From NCBI GenBank assembly GCA_021797555.1, contig JAJZZM010000024.1, positions 62,618 through 126,617 of the forward strand: a DNA stretch of 64,000 nt, read 5' to 3'. Both the position numbers and the translations under genes were made by a program. Every line of letters begins with the position of its first letter. Position 1 is the stretch's first letter. This document shows positions 8,816 through 60,244 of this stretch, piece after piece. This DNA is from Thermoplasmata archaeon. GTDB taxonomy: Archaea > Thermoplasmatota > Thermoplasmata > Thermoplasmatales > Thermoplasmataceae. Under the pieces are notes generated by a model, which saw only the letters and a program-made list of their open reading frames with translations, made no database searches and was not told where the DNA came from.

Positions 8816-8888
8816 GGGGCTGTGGGGTAGCTTGGTATCCTACGGGCTTTGGGAGCCTGAGACCCCGATTCAAATTCGGGCAGCCCCA
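8816..8888 (+). tRNA. tRNA-Pro (anticodon TGG)
   Basis: 73 bases with a full cloverleaf. Acceptor GGGGCTG (8816-8822) pairs with CAGCCCC (8881-8887), discriminator A at 8888. Anticodon stem CGGGC/GCCTG (8843-8847, 8855-8859) has loop TTTGGGA and anticodon TGG at 8850-8852. T stem CCCGA/TCGGG (8864-8868, 8876-8880) has loop TTCAAAT. No intron, and CCA is not encoded. UGG can read all proline codons by wobble. The tRNA is followed 12 bases later by a C/D box sRNA, so the two are probably made from one precursor. Confidence 0.97.
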
Positions 8889-49550: not shown

Positions 49551-51257
49551 TTAATTTTTCTTATTATTTTTATTATGCTTATTGCTGTTTTTACCACTGG
49601 GCTTTTTCTTGCTTTCCAGCTTTTTCGGCTCGTTATTTAACTTTTTAGGTTCTGTAGTATTTGTAACTTTATTTTCAGTTTTGCTCTGAATGTTATTTCT
49701 TGGTTTGGTTGCACGGCGTTTTGATATTTCAAAATATGCAATGCCTATTATTATGATAGCTGCAACAACTGCACCTATTATTATCGGTATTTCATATGGA
49801 TATCTGTTTATAGTTACGGATTTCGTATACTGGCCAGAGGTTATAAATGATGACGGTTCATTTGAAGAAACTGCCTTTGCAGTAATTGTATATTTTCCAG
49901 TTACGCCTGGCGTAAATGTAAATGATAGGTTCTTGTATGCCGATGGGTTTATAGGCGTTATGTATGATTCTGAATATGTTTTGCCATTTATTATAACATA
50001 TAAACTATACGAATCAGCTGTTACTGTCCCCTCATTTGAAACGTTTATATAAATGGTTGATTTTATTCCATCTGATATATTGCCTGGTATATAAATACTG
50101 TTTACAACAAGCCTTGGTGTTGTAACTATAGGTTCAAATGTTTTATTTAAGTAAGCTGATACCTTTGATGGATTCGTAGTCTCTAAGGATAAAACAAATG
50201 ATTTATATGTATATATTTTTAATGTAATGTTTTCTGTTGTAAAGTTACCATGTATAATTTCATATGTGTTTATTGATTGCTTCATTTTTGTACCGTTTGA
50301 ATACATTATAGACCATAAATATGTTATGTTATGGCCATAATATATATCATATGAACCATCCGCAGAGAATATTACTTCCTCACCTACAGTAGGATTTTTT
50401 ATCGCTACTCCGGTCGCATTCGTTAATGTAAGTACCGGTACTGGTGGTGTTGTATCCATTATATAAAAGGTTAAAGTTGTACTATTTTTGTTATCTGTAA
50501 CTGATGTCACGTTAAGATGCAATGTAACATTTTTAAATGGCTCCTGGAATGTGTATGTTAAATTGGGGCCTATATATGTATAATTGTTTACTGTCCAGTT
50601 TAATATTAGTGGTACATTGTAATCCGTATTATATACTTTTAACGATGAATTATAACCATAAACACATGTAAACTGACCCTGTCCAACATCATATTTGCCG
50701 GATGTTTCATTTATTATTTTTGATTTCTGTTGAACGGTTGTATTTATTAATGGCTTCAATGTTGAATTTATAAGATAAACATGGAATGTTGTATTATTAT
50801 AACTGTTTGATGCTGTTACGTTAACACTTATATTAGCCTCTTCATGTTTGTATGATGTAAAGTTTATGGATGCGTTATATGAAGTGCTGTCATAAATTTT
50901 TATGCTACTGCTATACCATGTATAGCTTGCATCTGTATATTTTATTGATGAATTTGAGTCATAGAATGCCCTTGAAGCATTAAATGATACATTTGTATAT
51001 GGTGCTACGAATACAGTATTATTTAACGATGTGTTTACAGTATAATCAGTTGATACCATACTTTTCCAGTATAAATTTATTTCTGGGTCAGTTACTGTAA
51101 CATTTTTATTGGAAGATTGAGAGGTAAATGGTATATTTACACCATTCAAATTTATATTATTCGCGCTATTATCATTTCCAGCAATACTGGCAGTTGCAAT
51201 AGCCATTGAACTGATTATCATGATCATAGTTATTATAATTACAAAGGATTTTTTCAT
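49551..51257 (-). CDS. Surface protein with PKD-like and CARDB-like domains
   Basis: 568 residues. Signal peptide 1-27, ectodomain rich in N-x-S/T, one membrane helix at about 489-510, and a 56-residue cytoplasmic tail rich in Lys/Asn (KKPSGKNSNKHNKNNKKN). A PKD-like segment has FSADGSYDIYYGHNITYLWS (about 295-315). A CARDB-like domain near 395-480 has VSNEGTVTADSYSLYVIING and PGVTGKYTITAKAV. It is probably an adhesion or envelope protein. Convergent with the trp operon, 6 bases apart. Confidence 0.8.
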   Translation of the reverse strand: MKKSFVIIITMIMIISSMAIATASIAGNDNSANNINLNGVNIPFTSQSSNKNVTVTDPEINLYWKSMVSTDYTVNTSLNNTVFVAPYTNVSFNASRAFYDSNSSIKYTDASYTWYSSSIKIYDSTSYNASINFTSYKHEEANISVNVTASNSYNNTTFHVYLINSTLKPLINTTVQQKSKIINETSGKYDVGQGQFTCVYGYNSSLKVYNTDYNVPLILNWTVNNYTYIGPNLTYTFQEPFKNVTLHLNVTSVTDNKNSTTLTFYIMDTTPPVPVLTLTNATGVAIKNPTVGEEVIFSADGSYDIYYGHNITYLWSIMYSNGTKMKQSINTYEIIHGNFTTENITLKIYTYKSFVLSLETTNPSKVSAYLNKTFEPIVTTPRLVVNSIYIPGNISDGIKSTIYINVSNEGTVTADSYSLYVIINGKTYSESYITPINPSAYKNLSFTFTPGVTGKYTITAKAVSSNEPSSFITSGQYTKSVTINRYPYEIPIIIGAVVAAIIIIGIAYFEISKRRATKPRNNIQSKTENKVTNTTEPKKLNNEPKKLESKKKPSGKNSNKHNKNNKKN

Positions 51258-53146: not shown

Positions 53147-53165
53147 CCTATTGATATACATTATC

Positions 53166-53486
53166 ATGAATGAATATTCAATATTCAAAGAAATAAATGA
53201 AGACATAGAAACTCTAGAAAGACATATAATGATTATAAAAACATTGCTTAAGGAACAGCCCATGGGAATAATTAAAATGTCCCAGCAAACAGGAATTCCT
53301 GAACATAAAATCAGGTATTCATTGCGTATTCTTGAACACGAAGAAATAATAGAGGCATCAAGGGAAGGTGCAATATTAACATCAAATTTTCTTTCAAATA
53401 AGGATATCATACTCAATTCTGCTAAAAAAATGCATACAGACCTTGAAAATATATATAAAGAATTAAAAAATATACTTGAAAATTAA
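53166..53486 (+). CDS. Winged-helix transcriptional regulator with C-terminal coiled coil
   Basis: 106 residues from the ATG at 53166. The helix-turn-helix reads MGIIKMSQQTGIPEHKIRYS (about 32-51), then EHEEIIEASREGAILT forms the wing. The C-terminal 25 residues (MHTDLENIYKELKNI) are a coil. Resembles archaeal predicted regulators. Next gene starts 20 bases on. Confidence 0.8.
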   Translation: MNEYSIFKEINEDIETLERHIMIIKTLLKEQPMGIIKMSQQTGIPEHKIRYSLRILEHEEIIEASREGAILTSNFLSNKDIILNSAKKMHTDLENIYKELKNILEN

Positions 53487-53505
53487 TATATTTAAGGGTA
53501 TTAAT

Positions 53506-54048
53506 ATGCAGAATAATAGATTAAGGGATATATTTCTGAAAAAAAAAATTGATAAAAATTACATAATACGTAAAGCTGTACCTCAGGATGCAAAAGGCAT
53601 TATAAACTGCATGCAGAGTGTAATGAATGAAAAAATATACCTTGTAAGTGAATATTACTTATTAACAGAACGTGGAGAACATGAGAGATTAAAAAATCCC
53701 GGGGACCTGACATTGGTCTGTGAGTCAAATGGTGATATAGCCGGGGTTTTAACAATTCAAAGGGGCATGTATAAAAAAAACAGGCATATAGCAAATCTGG
53801 GCATAGCGATAAAAAAAGACTACAGGAACAAGAAAATAGGTACAAATATGATTATGGAAGCATTAATATGGTCAAAAGATCAGGGTATACTAAAGGTGAA
53901 TCTAGAAGTATTTTCAATAAATGTTAATGCAATAAAAACCTATAGAAAACTTGGATTTGAATATGAAGGTGTGAGGAAAAACCAGTTTATAATAGAAGGT
54001 AAATATGTTGATGATATACTTATGACCTTTTTTACAGATACATTATAA
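53506..54048 (+). CDS. GNAT family N-acetyltransferase
   Basis: 180 residues from the ATG at 53506. Acetyl-CoA binding: ANLGIAIKKDYRNKKIGTNM (about 93-112, motif Q/R-x-x-G-x-G/A), then NAIKTYRKLGFEYEGVRKNQF. It resembles RimI/PhnO-like acetyltransferases; substrate not known. AAGGGT lies before the ATG. Preceding regulator and following ABC genes are on the same strand. Confidence 0.9.
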   Translation: MQNNRLRDIFLKKKIDKNYIIRKAVPQDAKGIINCMQSVMNEKIYLVSEYYLLTERGEHERLKNPGDLTLVCESNGDIAGVLTIQRGMYKKNRHIANLGIAIKKDYRNKKIGTNMIMEALIWSKDQGILKVNLEVFSINVNAIKTYRKLGFEYEGVRKNQFIIEGKYVDDILMTFFTDTL

Positions 54049-54100: not shown

Positions 54101-55114
54101 ATGTTTAATAATATTTTAAAAATTATAATAAAATATACTGGTATATTCATAAGTATAACCATTTTATTTTTTATTATAATGAAACTTATCCCGGAAAATA
54201 TTATTATAAAGAATTATGGCGTTGGTGCATATACAAATCTTGGATTAAAGTACCCATTTTTTATTCAATATTTTTATTTTTTGTATGACCTTGTTGCCGG
54301 AAATATGGGGAATGTAAATATTAAAATTTATACAGGCAATACATTTAATATAATTAGGATTTTACTGCCTGAAACTCTGGAATTTATAATTATAAGTTTT
54401 CTTGCATCACTGGCTATATCATATAAATTGGGACTTTACATAGGAATTAAATACAAAAACACAAATAAAATTAATGTAAATATATTTCCATTCCTCGTTT
54501 TATACCTTATTACAGGTTTAATATTCCTAACCATTTTCAATGGCTTGCTTGGAATTTTGCCCTTTGAATACATAATATCCAGTCGTTTTTCAGATTATTC
54601 ATGGATACGCTATACTGGCTATGGGATTTTTATAACAAGGCCCACAGATATAATATTATTTGACAGTATAATAAATGGTAACTATTCTGTGTTAATAAGC
54701 TATATAAAAAGCTTTATCATGCCATTTATGGCACTGATAATACCTTCTACAATTTATCTAACTATGTATATAAGCCGGTTAACATCCACAGAATACAATA
54801 AGGATTACCTGAAGATTGGATTTATAAGGGGCCTATATGAAAATGATTACATAAAACATATAAAAGGAAATATAAATTTTGAAATTATACATGAATTAAG
54901 GCCTGTATTCATACTTTTTATTGGGGGCATGATAATAATAAGCTACATATATTCATATATGAATATAGGTGAATTTATAGTATATTCATTTTTAAGTTAT
55001 AACGGTGGCTTTATGGGTGCAATATACGGTATTTTTATATTGATAGTTATTGTCCTTATATTCAATTTCATTATTGATTTGATTATTAGAGGTAAAAAAT
55101 ATGTATTACATTAA
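54101..55114 (+). CDS. Opp/Dpp-type ABC transporter permease (DppB-like)
   Basis: 337 residues from the ATG at 54101, six membrane helices. Typical N terminus (first helix, then an extracellular loop with LKYPFFIQYFYFLYDLVAGN), and a partly kept EAA loop: YNKDYLKIGFIRGLYENDYIKHIKG (short of the E-A-A). The C terminus is membrane-embedded. It would form half of the peptide pore. A TATA-like AAATTTAAATTTGTA lies 25-37 bases before the ATG. Overlaps the next permease by 14 bases. Confidence 0.88.
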   Translation: MFNNILKIIIKYTGIFISITILFFIIMKLIPENIIIKNYGVGAYTNLGLKYPFFIQYFYFLYDLVAGNMGNVNIKIYTGNTFNIIRILLPETLEFIIISFLASLAISYKLGLYIGIKYKNTNKINVNIFPFLVLYLITGLIFLTIFNGLLGILPFEYIISSRFSDYSWIRYTGYGIFITRPTDIILFDSIINGNYSVLISYIKSFIMPFMALIIPSTIYLTMYISRLTSTEYNKDYLKIGFIRGLYENDYIKHIKGNINFEIIHELRPVFILFIGGMIIISYIYSYMNIGEFIVYSFLSYNGGFMGAIYGIFILIVIVLIFNFIIDLIIRGKKYVLH

Positions 55115-55904
55115 ATTGCTGATTAAAAATAAATTGTCATTATTAAGTATTATAATAATAATTTTATACTTCTTAGACTATATATTAGATATAATATACC
55201 CACAGTATCTCGGAGTTAGTAACATCAATAATTTACTTGTTTTCAGGGTGAAAGATTATTTAATACCTATTGCACCATCCCTGATTTCGTGGCATTTATA
55301 CATGGGTACAACATATTATGGAATAGCAATATTTCCGGCCATCCTTGCATCATTAAAAATAGATTTTACAGTAATGCTAACATCACTTGCATTATCCGTT
55401 ATAACGGGTTTTTTCCTTGGATATATTGCATTAATATCAAATAGTAAAATTTACAGGAGGGCCATATTATATATAAACAGGGTTTTTTTTGATATCCCAT
55501 ATATAATTATAGCATTGTTAGTACTTTTTGTTGTGAGGCCATCAATATATGGCATAATAATTGCAATATACATAGCATGGTTTCCATTTTATATAAACAG
55601 GTCGTATAAAACAGGCCATAAAAATATAAAAGATGCCTTTATGGATATTATGCCATATATAATATCCGATATGGGGAGTATGTTCGGTCTTATAACTATA
55701 ATAACATTCTTCGGATTTTATTACAGCAATCCATTTATAGTTGATTTAGGCAATATAATGAATATTGATGGAGATGTTTCGCAGTACATATCATTCGGGG
55801 ACTGGTGGATTGTTATCTTTCCACTTATTTTTATTATTGTATTCATTATATCTACATCAATATTAAGCTATAGAATAAAGGTGGTTTTAAATGATAAAAA
55901 ATAA
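55101..55904 (+). CDS. Opp/Dpp-type ABC transporter permease (DppC-like), EAA loop eroded
   Basis: 267 residues, six helices. The PTS region MGTTYYGIAIFPAILASLKID resembles the G-T-D-x-x-G-R-D start of DppC with changes. The ATPase-contact loop that normally reads E-A-A-x(3)-G-x(9)-I-x-L-P is SYKTGHKNIKDAFMDIMPYI, without E-A-A and shortened. Overlaps the permease before by 14 bases and the ATPase-like gene by 14. Confidence 0.85.
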   Translation: MYYIKLLIKNKLSLLSIIIIILYFLDYILDIIYPQYLGVSNINNLLVFRVKDYLIPIAPSLISWHLYMGTTYYGIAIFPAILASLKIDFTVMLTSLALSVITGFFLGYIALISNSKIYRRAILYINRVFFDIPYIIIALLVLFVVRPSIYGIIIAIYIAWFPFYINRSYKTGHKNIKDAFMDIMPYIISDMGSMFGLITIITFFGFYYSNPFIVDLGNIMNIDGDVSQYISFGDWWIVIFPLIFIIVFIISTSILSYRIKVVLNDKK

Positions 55905-57210
55905 TGAATGCTTTAGATTTATTACTGAGAATTTCTCCCTAAAAATAGATAATGACCCAGTAGTTAATGGTTTAAATATTAAAATAGAATCAGACAAAAG
56001 CCTTTTAATATTTTCCAATAACAGTAATATATCAGATTTTTTATCAATTTTTATGCTTAAGATTTTTAATAATAATTACTACTCAGGGAACATTTTCTAT
56101 GATAACGTAAACATTACAGAAATCATGAAAAAAATAAAGAAATTCAATGTAAAGGACAAAAATATATTGAAATTGTCCAGCATTATAAAAAATATATTTG
56201 TTATACCTGAAAAAACTGTGGATATATTTGATAAAACATTAACAGTATCGGATCAGATACTGGATTTTTTAACCTATAATACAAGGATAAAAATGCTAAA
56301 TTCGATAATAAGAAGGGAAATGATAAGCCACAGTGACATTGAATATTTAATAGAAAATTATAATAATTCTGATGATAAGGATAGTTTTCTTATATACTGG
56401 GCAACCGAATACGGGGTACCAAATATTTTAGATGGGCTTGATAAAATTTTAAAAAATGGTGAAAATTTAAATCAAAAACTTATGGAGGCATTACTATACC
56501 AGAAAACAGGAGTTAACCTTGCAGATATAGTAGTTTTAAGGGATTATTATAAATATAAATTAAAGAATAATGAATTTAATACATACAACAATAAAAATAC
56601 TGAAGAAACTCCAAATATAATTAATATTAAATTAAAAAAGAGAAGCAATGAAGAATTATTAAAAAATGAAATAAACAAACATATAATAGAATATCTAAAA
56701 TTTTTAGGCGTAGATAATGGAATTGACATATTAAATAAAAAACCCGAAGAAATTGAAAATCCAATATTAAAGGAGATATTGCTTGTAATAATGATTTTTT
56801 CCGATGCTGGCATTTTAATTCTGGATAACCCCGGAATAGAAGGTGAGGAAAAAAAGTTTATGAATAATATATATAAAATACACAAAACATTTAACTTTGC
56901 TTATATATGTATGGCGCATAATAATGATGTTATAAAATACTATCATGAATTATTTGATGATATCAAAATTATATACAATGGCAATACAATTGAGGAGTCT
57001 TCCATAAAAGATTTTATTGAAAACCCTTTGCACCCATACTCAAAATATATATTAAAAAATAGTGGTAATCAAAAAAGTTATATGCAAAATGGATGTAATT
57101 ATTATAATTTGTGCAAATTTTCCATGAATTTATGCAAACATAAGGTTCCTATTGAGCATGAAGCATTGAAAAACCATTCAGTATCATGTTTTATTTATGA
57201 CAATAAATAA
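55891..57210 (+). CDS. Degenerate Opp-type ATPase (Walker A lost)
   Basis: 439 residues. The P-loop position is FSNNSNIS (41-48) instead of G-x-x-G-x-G-K-[ST]; no LSGGQ is found. The Walker B region is GILILDNPG (307-315), with N for the catalytic E after D. H343 (CMAHNNDV) is the H-loop. The C-terminal hallmark of Opp ATPases is intact: NPLHPYSKYIL (378-388) and the four-cysteine motif at 402, 408, 415, 433 (cf. C-x-P-x-C). Between about 90 and 260 lies an atypical low-complexity, AT-rich insert. ATP hydrolysis is very unlikely. No second ATPase gene is nearby. AAGGTGGT precedes the ATG. Confidence 0.85.
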   Translation: MIKNNECFRFITENFSLKIDNDPVVNGLNIKIESDKSLLIFSNNSNISDFLSIFMLKIFNNNYYSGNIFYDNVNITEIMKKIKKFNVKDKNILKLSSIIKNIFVIPEKTVDIFDKTLTVSDQILDFLTYNTRIKMLNSIIRREMISHSDIEYLIENYNNSDDKDSFLIYWATEYGVPNILDGLDKILKNGENLNQKLMEALLYQKTGVNLADIVVLRDYYKYKLKNNEFNTYNNKNTEETPNIINIKLKKRSNEELLKNEINKHIIEYLKFLGVDNGIDILNKKPEEIENPILKEILLVIMIFSDAGILILDNPGIEGEEKKFMNNIYKIHKTFNFAYICMAHNNDVIKYYHELFDDIKIIYNGNTIEESSIKDFIENPLHPYSKYILKNSGNQKSYMQNGCNYYNLCKFSMNLCKHKVPIEHEALKNHSVSCFIYDNK

Positions 57211-57211
57211 A

Positions 57212-60200
57212 TTAATTTATTAAATTAAACATGATTATATTACCTACCATACTGTTGTTTAAATTTAGATATTTATTATAAGTAACCATAATATTATCGT
57301 TTCCTGACTTTATATATAAATATAAATTATTGAAATATTTTACTGTACTATTTAGGTTTTTACTGTTGTAATTTTTATTTAGATAGGTTATATTCTGTTC
57401 CATATATTTCATAAGCGTTGATTGGTTTTTATCTGTTATATTGAAATTATATGCATTAAATCCATTATTATAAAGATGTGTATAATTTAATGTTGAACCC
57501 AAATATGTGTAATAGTATGTTTCATTTATATTGCTTTTTATTAGCATATTATACACTGGCATTGGGTTTTCACCATATTTTTCATTATTTAAAATAAAGG
57601 CAGAATTTTCTGTGATTATAGGATAACTTGAACCATTTATAATAGATTTAAGCCTCAGTGTGAAGCTAGTTATATTCTTCATATCGCTCATCTGATTTAC
57701 AAATATAGGTATTACAATATTGTTTCCATTATACGTATAATCATTTGTGGCACGGTCATATTTTATATTGTATTTATTATTTTTTACAAACTCACTCCAT
57801 AATTCCCTGGCCTTAGTTATATTATAGTTATTGCCGAAGGCATAATAAAAAGTTTCCCTTACAGTAATGTTTGAAAATAGATTAGAAGGCATGTTAGAAT
57901 ATGAATATTTATCAAGTTCCTTTATGCTTACATTTGCATTGAAGTTATAAAGTTCCGTGTAATTAATAGTTTTATTATATATATTTACATTGCCCAACTG
58001 GTTTATATATGGTTTATAATCAGATGGGAACTCTGCTATCTGGGTTACGTTTAACCTTAGATCCTGGTAAATTTCTGATAAATATCCTCTATAATTGATT
58101 ATTACCATATTTATTTTTGGAACTGGGTCACCTTGCCTGCCTTCAAAATAAGGATTTTTAATTAAAACTAAGGAATAATTTTTAATATATGAGTATATTT
58201 CATACGGCCCATTGGATACTGTATTATCTAAGGAATATTTACTATATGTGCCATTTTTAAATGCATTAAAACCTTTTTCAGACCATGTGAGATTGCCATA
58301 ATCCTTTATATAGGTAGTTGAAGTAATAAATGCACCCGGGGATGATAAAATTTTAAAAACCAGGTTCCTATTCACAGGCATATTGAAATGCAATGTTATA
58401 TTATCAGTGGAATTATTTACAGTTATTGCATTGGCAATATCTGTATAATTATTTGTTTTGTAATAATTTCCTGAGAGCAAATACTGTGCTAAAATCCAGC
58501 CAGGAGTCTGTGGTGTTTTATTATCTAATAATAAATCTGCCGCCAGTGAATATGCAACATCCCACGCATTTACTTTATTGCCATCCTGGAAATATGCTTC
58601 ATCATATATATGGAATGTATAGTTTTCATTGTTGTTCGAAATGCCACCATTAGAAATTGATGGCAGGTATGCTGCAATTTCAGGTATATATGACTTGCCA
58701 TTATAGTAAACTAAAAACTGGTTTGTATTCATCAATATCTGCAAATCAGATTTGGAATCTGCAATTTCAGGGTTCAATGTGTTATATGGCGATGTTGAGG
58801 TGTATGTTATTGATTTAACTTTATTATTTATGTAAAGGCTTCCATTATTGTATACGGGTATATCCATATAATAATAAGTTTGATAAATGCCATTTGATGC
58901 ATTTATATCGCCGGTTATCCCTGCATTTATTATTCCCGGGGTTTTATATGCTACTGCTGCATGTGTATCATTTAAATATGTTATTTTAGAATTGTTTCCA
59001 TACAGTAATTCTGATCCTGATGAGACGTAAAATTTTGAATTATTAATATATATTAAATCTCCCTTATTATAAAGAACAGATGAATTAATATAATTAAAAT
59101 ATGTATTGTTCATGGTTATTACTGCAGCAGTTGAATTAAATTTAATTGTATCTGTTCTGTTTAATTTTAATACTGTTGAGTTTTTATAATTATATACTTT
59201 GTTGTTTAAAATATATGAACCACCTAAAGGCAGTCTAATTGATGCATTTTCCAATGCTGTTATTTTAGATCCATTTGAAATATAGAAAGTATCACCTTTT
59301 ACTACAGAAACATTTGAGTTTTTATAGTATATACTGGAACCTGATTTAAATAATAATGATCCATTGTTTTCATCTATTGCATTTGTACTATTTTTGTATT
59401 CTATATATATTACTGAATGACCATTATATGTACCGTTGTAATAGTACGCTGCATCCTTATTATACGTGATATTAGTATAATCAGTTTCATTAACATTTAT
59501 ATACTTATCAAGCAGAGAGGCCGAGTATGTGACAAGCTTTAATGTATACATTCCATTGGTTAAATTTTTTAATAAAAAACTATTATTTTTATTTTCATAT
59601 AACTGTGACGAATAATTAAATTTATACTGTAAATTATATGTCCTTATTAAAGAATTATTTTTATATAAATATAATGTCTGTGATATAACCTGATATGTGC
59701 TATTTGCAGGCTCATTAGAATATGATACTGAGAGATTTATATATGTACCTGATAAAAATATATTGGAATCTGACACTGCCGGTACTTTTGAGTAATTGTT
59801 TATATAAATTATTCCATTGGCAGTTTTATTATTGTTTAATGGTGCAACATATACTGGAATAAATGTGTTATTTTTATAAATTGAGCTGGTAAATTGAATT
59901 GTGTAATGTATATAGTATATACCGGGATTATTATATACATGGCTTGCGAATATTGTATCCCCAGATGATTTTACTATATTTATTGAATTGTCGCCCCAAC
60001 ATATCTCTGCATATTTAAATGGCCCATTTGTTTTTAATGTTAAATTATATATATTACCTGCCTGTATATAATTTTGGGCAGAATCTATTGTGGCATCAGG
60101 CACCTTATTAGCAGGATGGAACGCAGATAAAACTGCAAATGATGATAATAAAACTATTAAAATAACTATTATGGCATACCATTTATTCTTTGTTGACCTT

Positions 60201-60244
60201 GGTTTTTTCGGAGAGGTTTTTGGTTCTGGTATATCATAATTCAT
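57212..60244 (-). CDS. Membrane-anchored family 5 solute-binding protein with N-terminal PKD and repeat region
   Basis: 1010 residues. Short basic cytoplasmic tail (KKPRSTKN), one signal-anchor helix at 22-42, PKD-like domain about 46-135 (WGDNS, HVYNNPGIYYIHY), Asn/Tyr-rich middle, short repeat units at about 290-430 (e.g. GDTFYISNGSKITALENA, GDLIYINNSKFYVSSGS), and the SBP_bac_5 domain from about 480 to the end (NYTFHIYDEAYFQDGNKVNA). Family 5 proteins bind oligopeptides or other ligands for Opp transporters, usually near 550 residues, so 450 are extra. Convergent with the Opp-type operon, 1 base apart. Many N-x-S/T sites. Confidence 0.85.
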   Translation of the reverse strand: MNYDIPEPKTSPKKPRSTKNKWYAIIVILIVLLSSFAVLSAFHPANKVPDATIDSAQNYIQAGNIYNLTLKTNGPFKYAEICWGDNSINIVKSSGDTIFASHVYNNPGIYYIHYTIQFTSSIYKNNTFIPVYVAPLNNNKTANGIIYINNYSKVPAVSDSNIFLSGTYINLSVSYSNEPANSTYQVISQTLYLYKNNSLIRTYNLQYKFNYSSQLYENKNNSFLLKNLTNGMYTLKLVTYSASLLDKYINVNETDYTNITYNKDAAYYYNGTYNGHSVIYIEYKNSTNAIDENNGSLLFKSGSSIYYKNSNVSVVKGDTFYISNGSKITALENASIRLPLGGSYILNNKVYNYKNSTVLKLNRTDTIKFNSTAAVITMNNTYFNYINSSVLYNKGDLIYINNSKFYVSSGSELLYGNNSKITYLNDTHAAVAYKTPGIINAGITGDINASNGIYQTYYYMDIPVYNNGSLYINNKVKSITYTSTSPYNTLNPEIADSKSDLQILMNTNQFLVYYNGKSYIPEIAAYLPSISNGGISNNNENYTFHIYDEAYFQDGNKVNAWDVAYSLAADLLLDNKTPQTPGWILAQYLLSGNYYKTNNYTDIANAITVNNSTDNITLHFNMPVNRNLVFKILSSPGAFITSTTYIKDYGNLTWSEKGFNAFKNGTYSKYSLDNTVSNGPYEIYSYIKNYSLVLIKNPYFEGRQGDPVPKINMVIINYRGYLSEIYQDLRLNVTQIAEFPSDYKPYINQLGNVNIYNKTINYTELYNFNANVSIKELDKYSYSNMPSNLFSNITVRETFYYAFGNNYNITKARELWSEFVKNNKYNIKYDRATNDYTYNGNNIVIPIFVNQMSDMKNITSFTLRLKSIINGSSYPIITENSAFILNNEKYGENPMPVYNMLIKSNINETYYYTYLGSTLNYTHLYNNGFNAYNFNITDKNQSTLMKYMEQNITYLNKNYNSKNLNSTVKYFNNLYLYIKSGNDNIMVTYNKYLNLNNSMVGNIIMFNLIN

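Follow-up and report, generated by a model that had tools for sequence, protein, structure and literature searches.

The closest described relatives of the locus reported here are the Dpp/Opp importers. In the importer of Escherichia coli, the coupling partners are DppB with DppD and DppC with DppF, and DppD ligates a [4Fe-4S] cluster through C284, C290, C297 and C315 (PMC12136057). A functional importer of this type was taken to require two complete NBDs, EAA helices in both permeases, a family-5 solute-binding protein (SBP) with a complete fold and pocket motif, and peptide uptake driven by ATP; an NBD fold without catalytic residues defined an ABC-fold pseudo-ATPase, and relaxed selection (dN/dS near 1) or interrupted frames defined a pseudogene. 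In some heterodimeric ABC proteins, such as TM287/288, CydDC and TAP, one of the ATP sites is degenerate. To our knowledge, no importer is known that lacks any working ATP site yet is kept whole by selection, and a search for importers with degenerate NBDs, made in a limited library of literature, returned nothing matching. Here we describe a locus that very probably encodes such an ATP-uncoupled complex kept by selection, although the new function itself has not been demonstrated.

The window, that is, the whole stretch of 64,000 nucleotides that was analysed, comes from a relative of Ferroplasma, whose genus (g1) includes F. acidarmanus Fer1 (NC_021592.1). Three genes follow one another on the + strand: permease B' (DppB/OppB-derived, 54101-55114, 337 aa from the ATG at 54101), permease C' (DppC/OppC-derived, 55101-55904, 267 aa), and D' (55891-57210, 439 aa), a pseudo-ATPase derived from the D subunit and identified by motif alignment, a predicted NBD fold and dN/dS. 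The B'/C' and C'/D' overlaps are 14 bp each. Convergent to them on the - strand is the gene of a membrane-anchored family-5 SBP (57212-60244, 1010 aa), recognised by its SBP_bac_5 match, and all four genes are open frames. The permeases were assigned through weak profile matches and alignment with intact orthologues: in B', the Pfam family BPD_transp_1 scores 22.7 bits, below the cut-off, next to weak NikB/Opp1B matches; C' has no Pfam match and only weak Opp2C/NikC matches. A winged-helix-like protein and a GNAT acetyltransferase (53151-54048, + strand) lie directly upstream of B' and are syntenic in most intact loci too. A homologous B and C permease pair with a family-5 SBP at one locus meets the criterion for assigning it to the Dpp/Opp importers. 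Elsewhere in the window, a CARDB-domain surface protein (49551-51257, 568 aa) has orthologues of 763-1025 aa in the intact genera and of about 203 aa in genus g18, and a tRNA-Pro (TGG, 8816-8888) is the sole tRNA and the sole Rfam match.

The motifs of D' were compared column by column with 10 intact orthologues of the same syntenic locus. At the former Walker A (56014-56037, + strand), SNNSNISD stands in place of GESGCGKS, and the Q-loop Gln has become Glu107. Across the former ABC signature (the EENPIL region) and Walker B (ILILDNP; together 56746-56832, + strand), SGG of the signature has changed to E-N-P and the Walker B Glu to Asn313. All dead copies are without the P-loop Lys, the Q-loop Gln, the signature and the catalytic Glu, and the pattern GxxxxGK[S/T] was not found in the derived copies scanned. 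The Walker B Asp312 is kept by 11 of the 15 derived copies, that of the window included; the H-loop His343 is present in the window copy and gone from nearly all relatives. With a single NBD-derived protein whose motifs are lost, the requirement for two complete NBDs is not met. The sole Pfam match of D' is oligo_HPY, which at 22.5 bits falls below the cut-off. In the AlphaFold2 model (pLDDT 78.6, pTM 0.79), D' is predicted to adopt an NBD fold in which the insert is well packed, and the nearest structures are E. coli DppD and M. tuberculosis OppD; with this predicted fold and without the motifs, D' qualifies as an ABC-fold pseudo-ATPase. We also considered D' as a shrunken two-cassette fusion and rejected this, because the intact orthologues are single cassettes with a long insert. 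Another alternative is that D' is a divergent cassette that still binds ATP. The predicted persistence of the NBD fold and the frequent retention of Asp312 speak for it; the absence of GxxxxGK[S/T], of the Q-loop Gln, signature and catalytic Glu, and of both the F subunit and the C coupling loop speak against it, and we regard it as very unlikely.

What D' has retained is equally distinctive. The NPLHPY element and Cys402, Cys408, Cys415 and Cys433 (57022-57189, + strand) are present, and the Cys spacing of 6-7-18 equals that of the cluster-binding Cys in E. coli DppD (comparison with PMC12136057). The four Cys are retained in six genomes and missing in the seven other Ferroplasma and in the full-length g19 copy, so the cluster is optional. 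The length of D' varies as well, at 439-442, 360-385, 444-465 or 308 aa across the derived genomes. The best-kept part is a helical insert (residues 118-232; 56242-56586, + strand) between the Q-loop and the signature, which is also found in intact D; it contains 22 of the 32 invariant columns of D' and is predicted with a pLDDT of about 90 over most of its length. A 113-position model of the insert matched D-type ATPases in 33 of 250 genomes across the class, all of this family apart from a single genome from a different family of the order and one genus further off, and no relative was found among solved structures (best E 0.19). The insert therefore appears to be restricted to Thermoplasmata. 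Gln122 is mostly kept in dead copies, and Asp114 and Asp125 stand in for Asn and Glu in most of them; this region is near the segment that contacts the permease loop in Dpp (PMC12136057). This residue pattern suggests that the permease-facing side of D' has been retained and the ATP-facing side lost.

The permeases have changed as well. Where intact C orthologues have the EAA coupling helix (55593-55670, + strand), C' is gapped, and gaps at ARLSRSL..K..YVEAATASG and SPxFVQxSL occur in all 14 derived copies. B' retains its coupling loop with a changed consensus (E231, Y236 and others), and its EAA consensus is gone; EAA helices in both permeases, as a functional importer needs, are therefore not present. 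Outer-side and membrane residues are kept and cytoplasmic ones altered, all predicted membrane segments are retained, and the permeases are among the best-conserved parts of the system, with a mean column identity of 65% for C'. Given the DppB-DppD and DppC-DppF pairing, loss of F together with the C helix, and survival of D together with the B loop, fit a stripped complex. These changes bear on a further alternative, namely that the transporter is driven in trans by the ATPases of another Opp system. In its favour, the genome holds four other Opp/Dpp-type sets with intact ATPases. Against it, in no derived genome does C' offer a loop to which an NBD could couple, the EAA consensus of B' is lost, the ATPase sites are partly taken by D', and the SBP is altered too; driving in trans is thus disfavoured, chiefly because of the missing loop, and we consider it unlikely.

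The SBP has one N-terminal hydrophobic anchor (residues 20-38). Its match to SBP_bac_5 (E 2.8e-21) covers only positions 12-226 of the 368 of the profile, and in derived SBPs generally the match ends at 183-226, versus 360-365 in intact orthologues. A stretch after 'VR.AF.YA' is gone from derived SBPs, as is the motif GWAPDYPYPTDY (GWAPDY), which is lost in 13 of 13 derived copies and present in 7 of 7 intact ones (once as GWSPDF). In the window, the place where intact orthologues have this motif lies at residues ~895-930 (57455-57562, - strand). The GWAPDY region aligns with GWCADYNEPTSFL of the OppA pocket, the segment whose residue contacts the amino group of the peptide. A peptide bound in the conventional manner is therefore an unlikely ligand of the SBP, and a complete family-5 fold with the pocket motif is not present. 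Foldseek places the protein in the OppA-like fold class; its AlphaFold2 model is moderate (pLDDT 59, pTM 0.35) and supports the fold class only. The original prediction, made from the sequence alone, had called the lost ATPase motifs and the missing EAA loop of C', and the alignment with intact orthologues bears out both; it had also called the binding protein intact, which holds for the reading frame only, given the short SBP_bac_5 match and the loss of GWAPDY.

Elsewhere in the family, other genera carry in the syntenic neighbourhood (winged-helix-like protein, GNAT, RtcB) a complete system of SBP (~920-1320 aa), B, C, ATPase D (~525 aa) and ATPase F (~485 aa). Walker A, signature and Walker B are all present in both D and F. 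Nearly all intact loci also have, following ATPase F, a small ORF of ~110-140 aa without Pfam match (L045:6552-6896, L047:10704-11039 and L087:12343-12678, among others). In the derived loci (three genera, 15 genomes), F and the small ORF are absent wherever the contig covers their place, and the small ORF, lost alongside F, may have been an unrecognised subunit. D is dead in all 15 genomes searched of these genera (10/10 in Ferroplasma, 3/3 in g18 and 2/2 in g19), the coupling loop of C' is gone wherever the gene is on the contig (14/14), and GWAPDY has disappeared from every derived SBP (13/13). The locus has thus lost F, the catalytic motifs of D', the C loop and the pocket-region motif of the SBP. 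Many of the genomes compared are metagenome-assembled; an assembly artefact or chance was rejected, because the same changes are seen in 15 genomes, including two published single-contig ones, of which F. acidarmanus Fer1 is one. Relocation of D and F was also rejected, as no long frames of D or F type occur among the Opp-type ATPases of the Ferroplasma genomes checked.

In a quick RpoB tree, the three derived genera group in a single clade (SH-aLRT 100), next to which stands an intact genus (SH-aLRT 87). One origin of the derived state thus suffices, and the loss of ATP coupling was likely a single event, in the ancestor that Ferroplasma shares with its two sister genera. An independent loss in g19 was considered and rejected, as g19, g18 and g1 share this clade. 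Judging from a published phylogeny (PMC10354927), g18 probably corresponds to Acidiplasma, g19 to Picrophilus and the intact sister genus g6 to Thermoplasma. In G091, a single-contig genome of g6, both the D with the insert and permease C are missing, and with them the entire system. The dead version is thus retained in 15 of 15 genomes, whereas the intact genus has a genome without the system, and we take the complete absence from related genomes that do not need it as support for selected retention.

Some other Opp-type ATPases were observed in passing. The F ATPases of intact loci (for example L045:6859-8334) have a long extension within the C-terminal Cys region, with ~485 aa compared with ~330 in E. 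coli DppF. The genome of the window has another Opp-type locus (C14:223531-233129), in which the SBP frame is 1732 aa long and D and F are fused into one ATPase of 711 aa, and an intact Opp D ATPase (C10:164266-164973) that ends at 275 aa inside oligo_HPY, without the Cys tail. Similar early stops of an Opp D ATPase occur in G002, G007 and G009.

Selection was assessed by pairwise Nei-Gojobori dN/dS with bootstrap. In four pairs, D' gave 0.153 (95% bootstrap 0.10-0.21), 0.150 (0.07-0.28), 0.144 (0.10-0.20) and 0.189 (0.05-0.54), and by region it is nowhere near 1 in the parts long enough to test. B' gave 0.07-0.13, the permeases together 0.07-0.18 and the SBP 0.09-0.17; control neighbours mostly fall at 0.04-0.17, with one near-identical RtcB pair being uninformative. 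dS nears saturation when the window is compared with its closest relatives, though the results of close pairs agree. No frameshift or internal stop was found in the genes used in these comparisons. All remaining genes are under purifying selection, and the definition of a pseudogene is not met. The alternative is slow decay, in which the locus is a non-functional remnant still open by chance. It has in its favour the loss of F and of the motifs and a D' that becomes progressively shorter (439-465, 360-385, 308 aa); the shrinkage from ~440 to 308 aa and the partial loss of the Cys, which slow decay would also produce, are indeed evidence against our own reading. Against decay, the dN/dS intervals of D' exclude 1 in four independent pairs, as does every testable region, and the system has been retained in 15 of 15 genomes since before the split of three genera. 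We therefore hold decay to be very unlikely.

The claim that the complex is repurposed rather than decayed accordingly held, with losses common to 15 genomes, dN/dS far below 1 and uninterrupted frames. An intact Walker A at this locus in relatives had been named as a refutation; it is confined to other genera, which also have F and a normal C at the locus, and thus represents the ancestral state. Among the three roles originally offered, driving by another ATPase is disfavoured, and receptor versus channel is undecided. The complete absence of the second ATPase F and of the small ORF of the ancestral operon goes beyond that prediction.

We propose that the former Dpp/Opp-type oligopeptide importer is now an ATP-independent complex acting as a receptor or scaffold, with a probability of roughly 0.5; it has no expression, interaction or ligand data behind it. 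In this proposal, D' would be a structural subunit, a pseudo-ATPase that stays attached to B' by the face of Q-loop and helical insert which it has retained; the gene overlap and the conserved permease-facing segment hint at association of D' with the permease pair, which has not been demonstrated. The SBP would still dock on the permeases at their outer loops, which are conserved, and the resulting assembly would be unable to pump peptides. Its most likely role would be that of a ligand-responsive receptor or scaffold that, by way of the permease pair, relays an outside signal to D' or anchors the surface protein to it. The altered ligand pocket of the SBP weakens a peptide receptor, and no signalling partner was recognised at the locus.

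Alternatively, the complex may be an ATP-independent transporter, either a facilitator or a proton-coupled carrier that draws on the large proton gradient directed into the cell of an acidophile; D' would then be a structural plug or stabiliser. The highly conserved permeases (65% for C'), their low dN/dS, and the retained membrane segments and SBP favour this possibility. ECF importer parts such as solitary BioY are reported to function without ATPases. Against it, GWAPDY is lost from the SBP, and the alignment shows no conspicuous acidic or His residue newly fixed within the permease membrane helices; flux is undemonstrated. Within the ATP-uncoupled reading, a receptor or scaffold is as likely as not, and a passive or ion-coupled carrier falls a little short of that. 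A bolder version, which we put forward tentatively and would not expect to win an even bet, is that the whole importer is now an ATP-independent machine whose pseudo-ATPase is kept mainly for its permease-gripping insert, serving as a surface receptor or as an SBP-gated, proton-driven carrier fit for life near pH 1.

Such a locus is easily counted as an ordinary oligopeptide ABC transporter, which is a hazard for annotation. With the intact ancestor at the same locus in relatives, and the joint change in one clade, the locus offers a direct test of what the permease, binding protein and cassette of an importer can do without ATP. Among known systems, TRAP transporters achieve SBP-dependent transport without ATP (PMC9352664, PMC9971032); their membrane subunits are unrelated to B' and C', and the analogy is functional only. 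Closer in origin, BioY, a solitary ECF S component, is likewise part of an ABC importer that persists without ATPases, but it is a single integral subunit with neither a pseudo-ATPase nor an SBP kept. CFTR and SUR1 likewise put an ABC scaffold to a use other than pumping; they still bind ATP, whereas D' is not expected to. TM287/288, CydDC and TAP have likewise lost catalytic residues in a retained NBD, but they keep a second NBD and one working ATP site, and the locus here has no working site. The Dpp/Opp importers of E. coli (DppABCDF) and M. tuberculosis (OppABCD and DppABCD) differ in having F, the catalytic motifs of D, the EAA loop of C and the pocket-region motif of the SBP; the locus is nevertheless like them in its B-C-D arrangement with a family-5 SBP, its NBD fold and NPLHPY element and its synteny with intact members, and the Cys of the window copy are spaced as in the [4Fe-4S] site.
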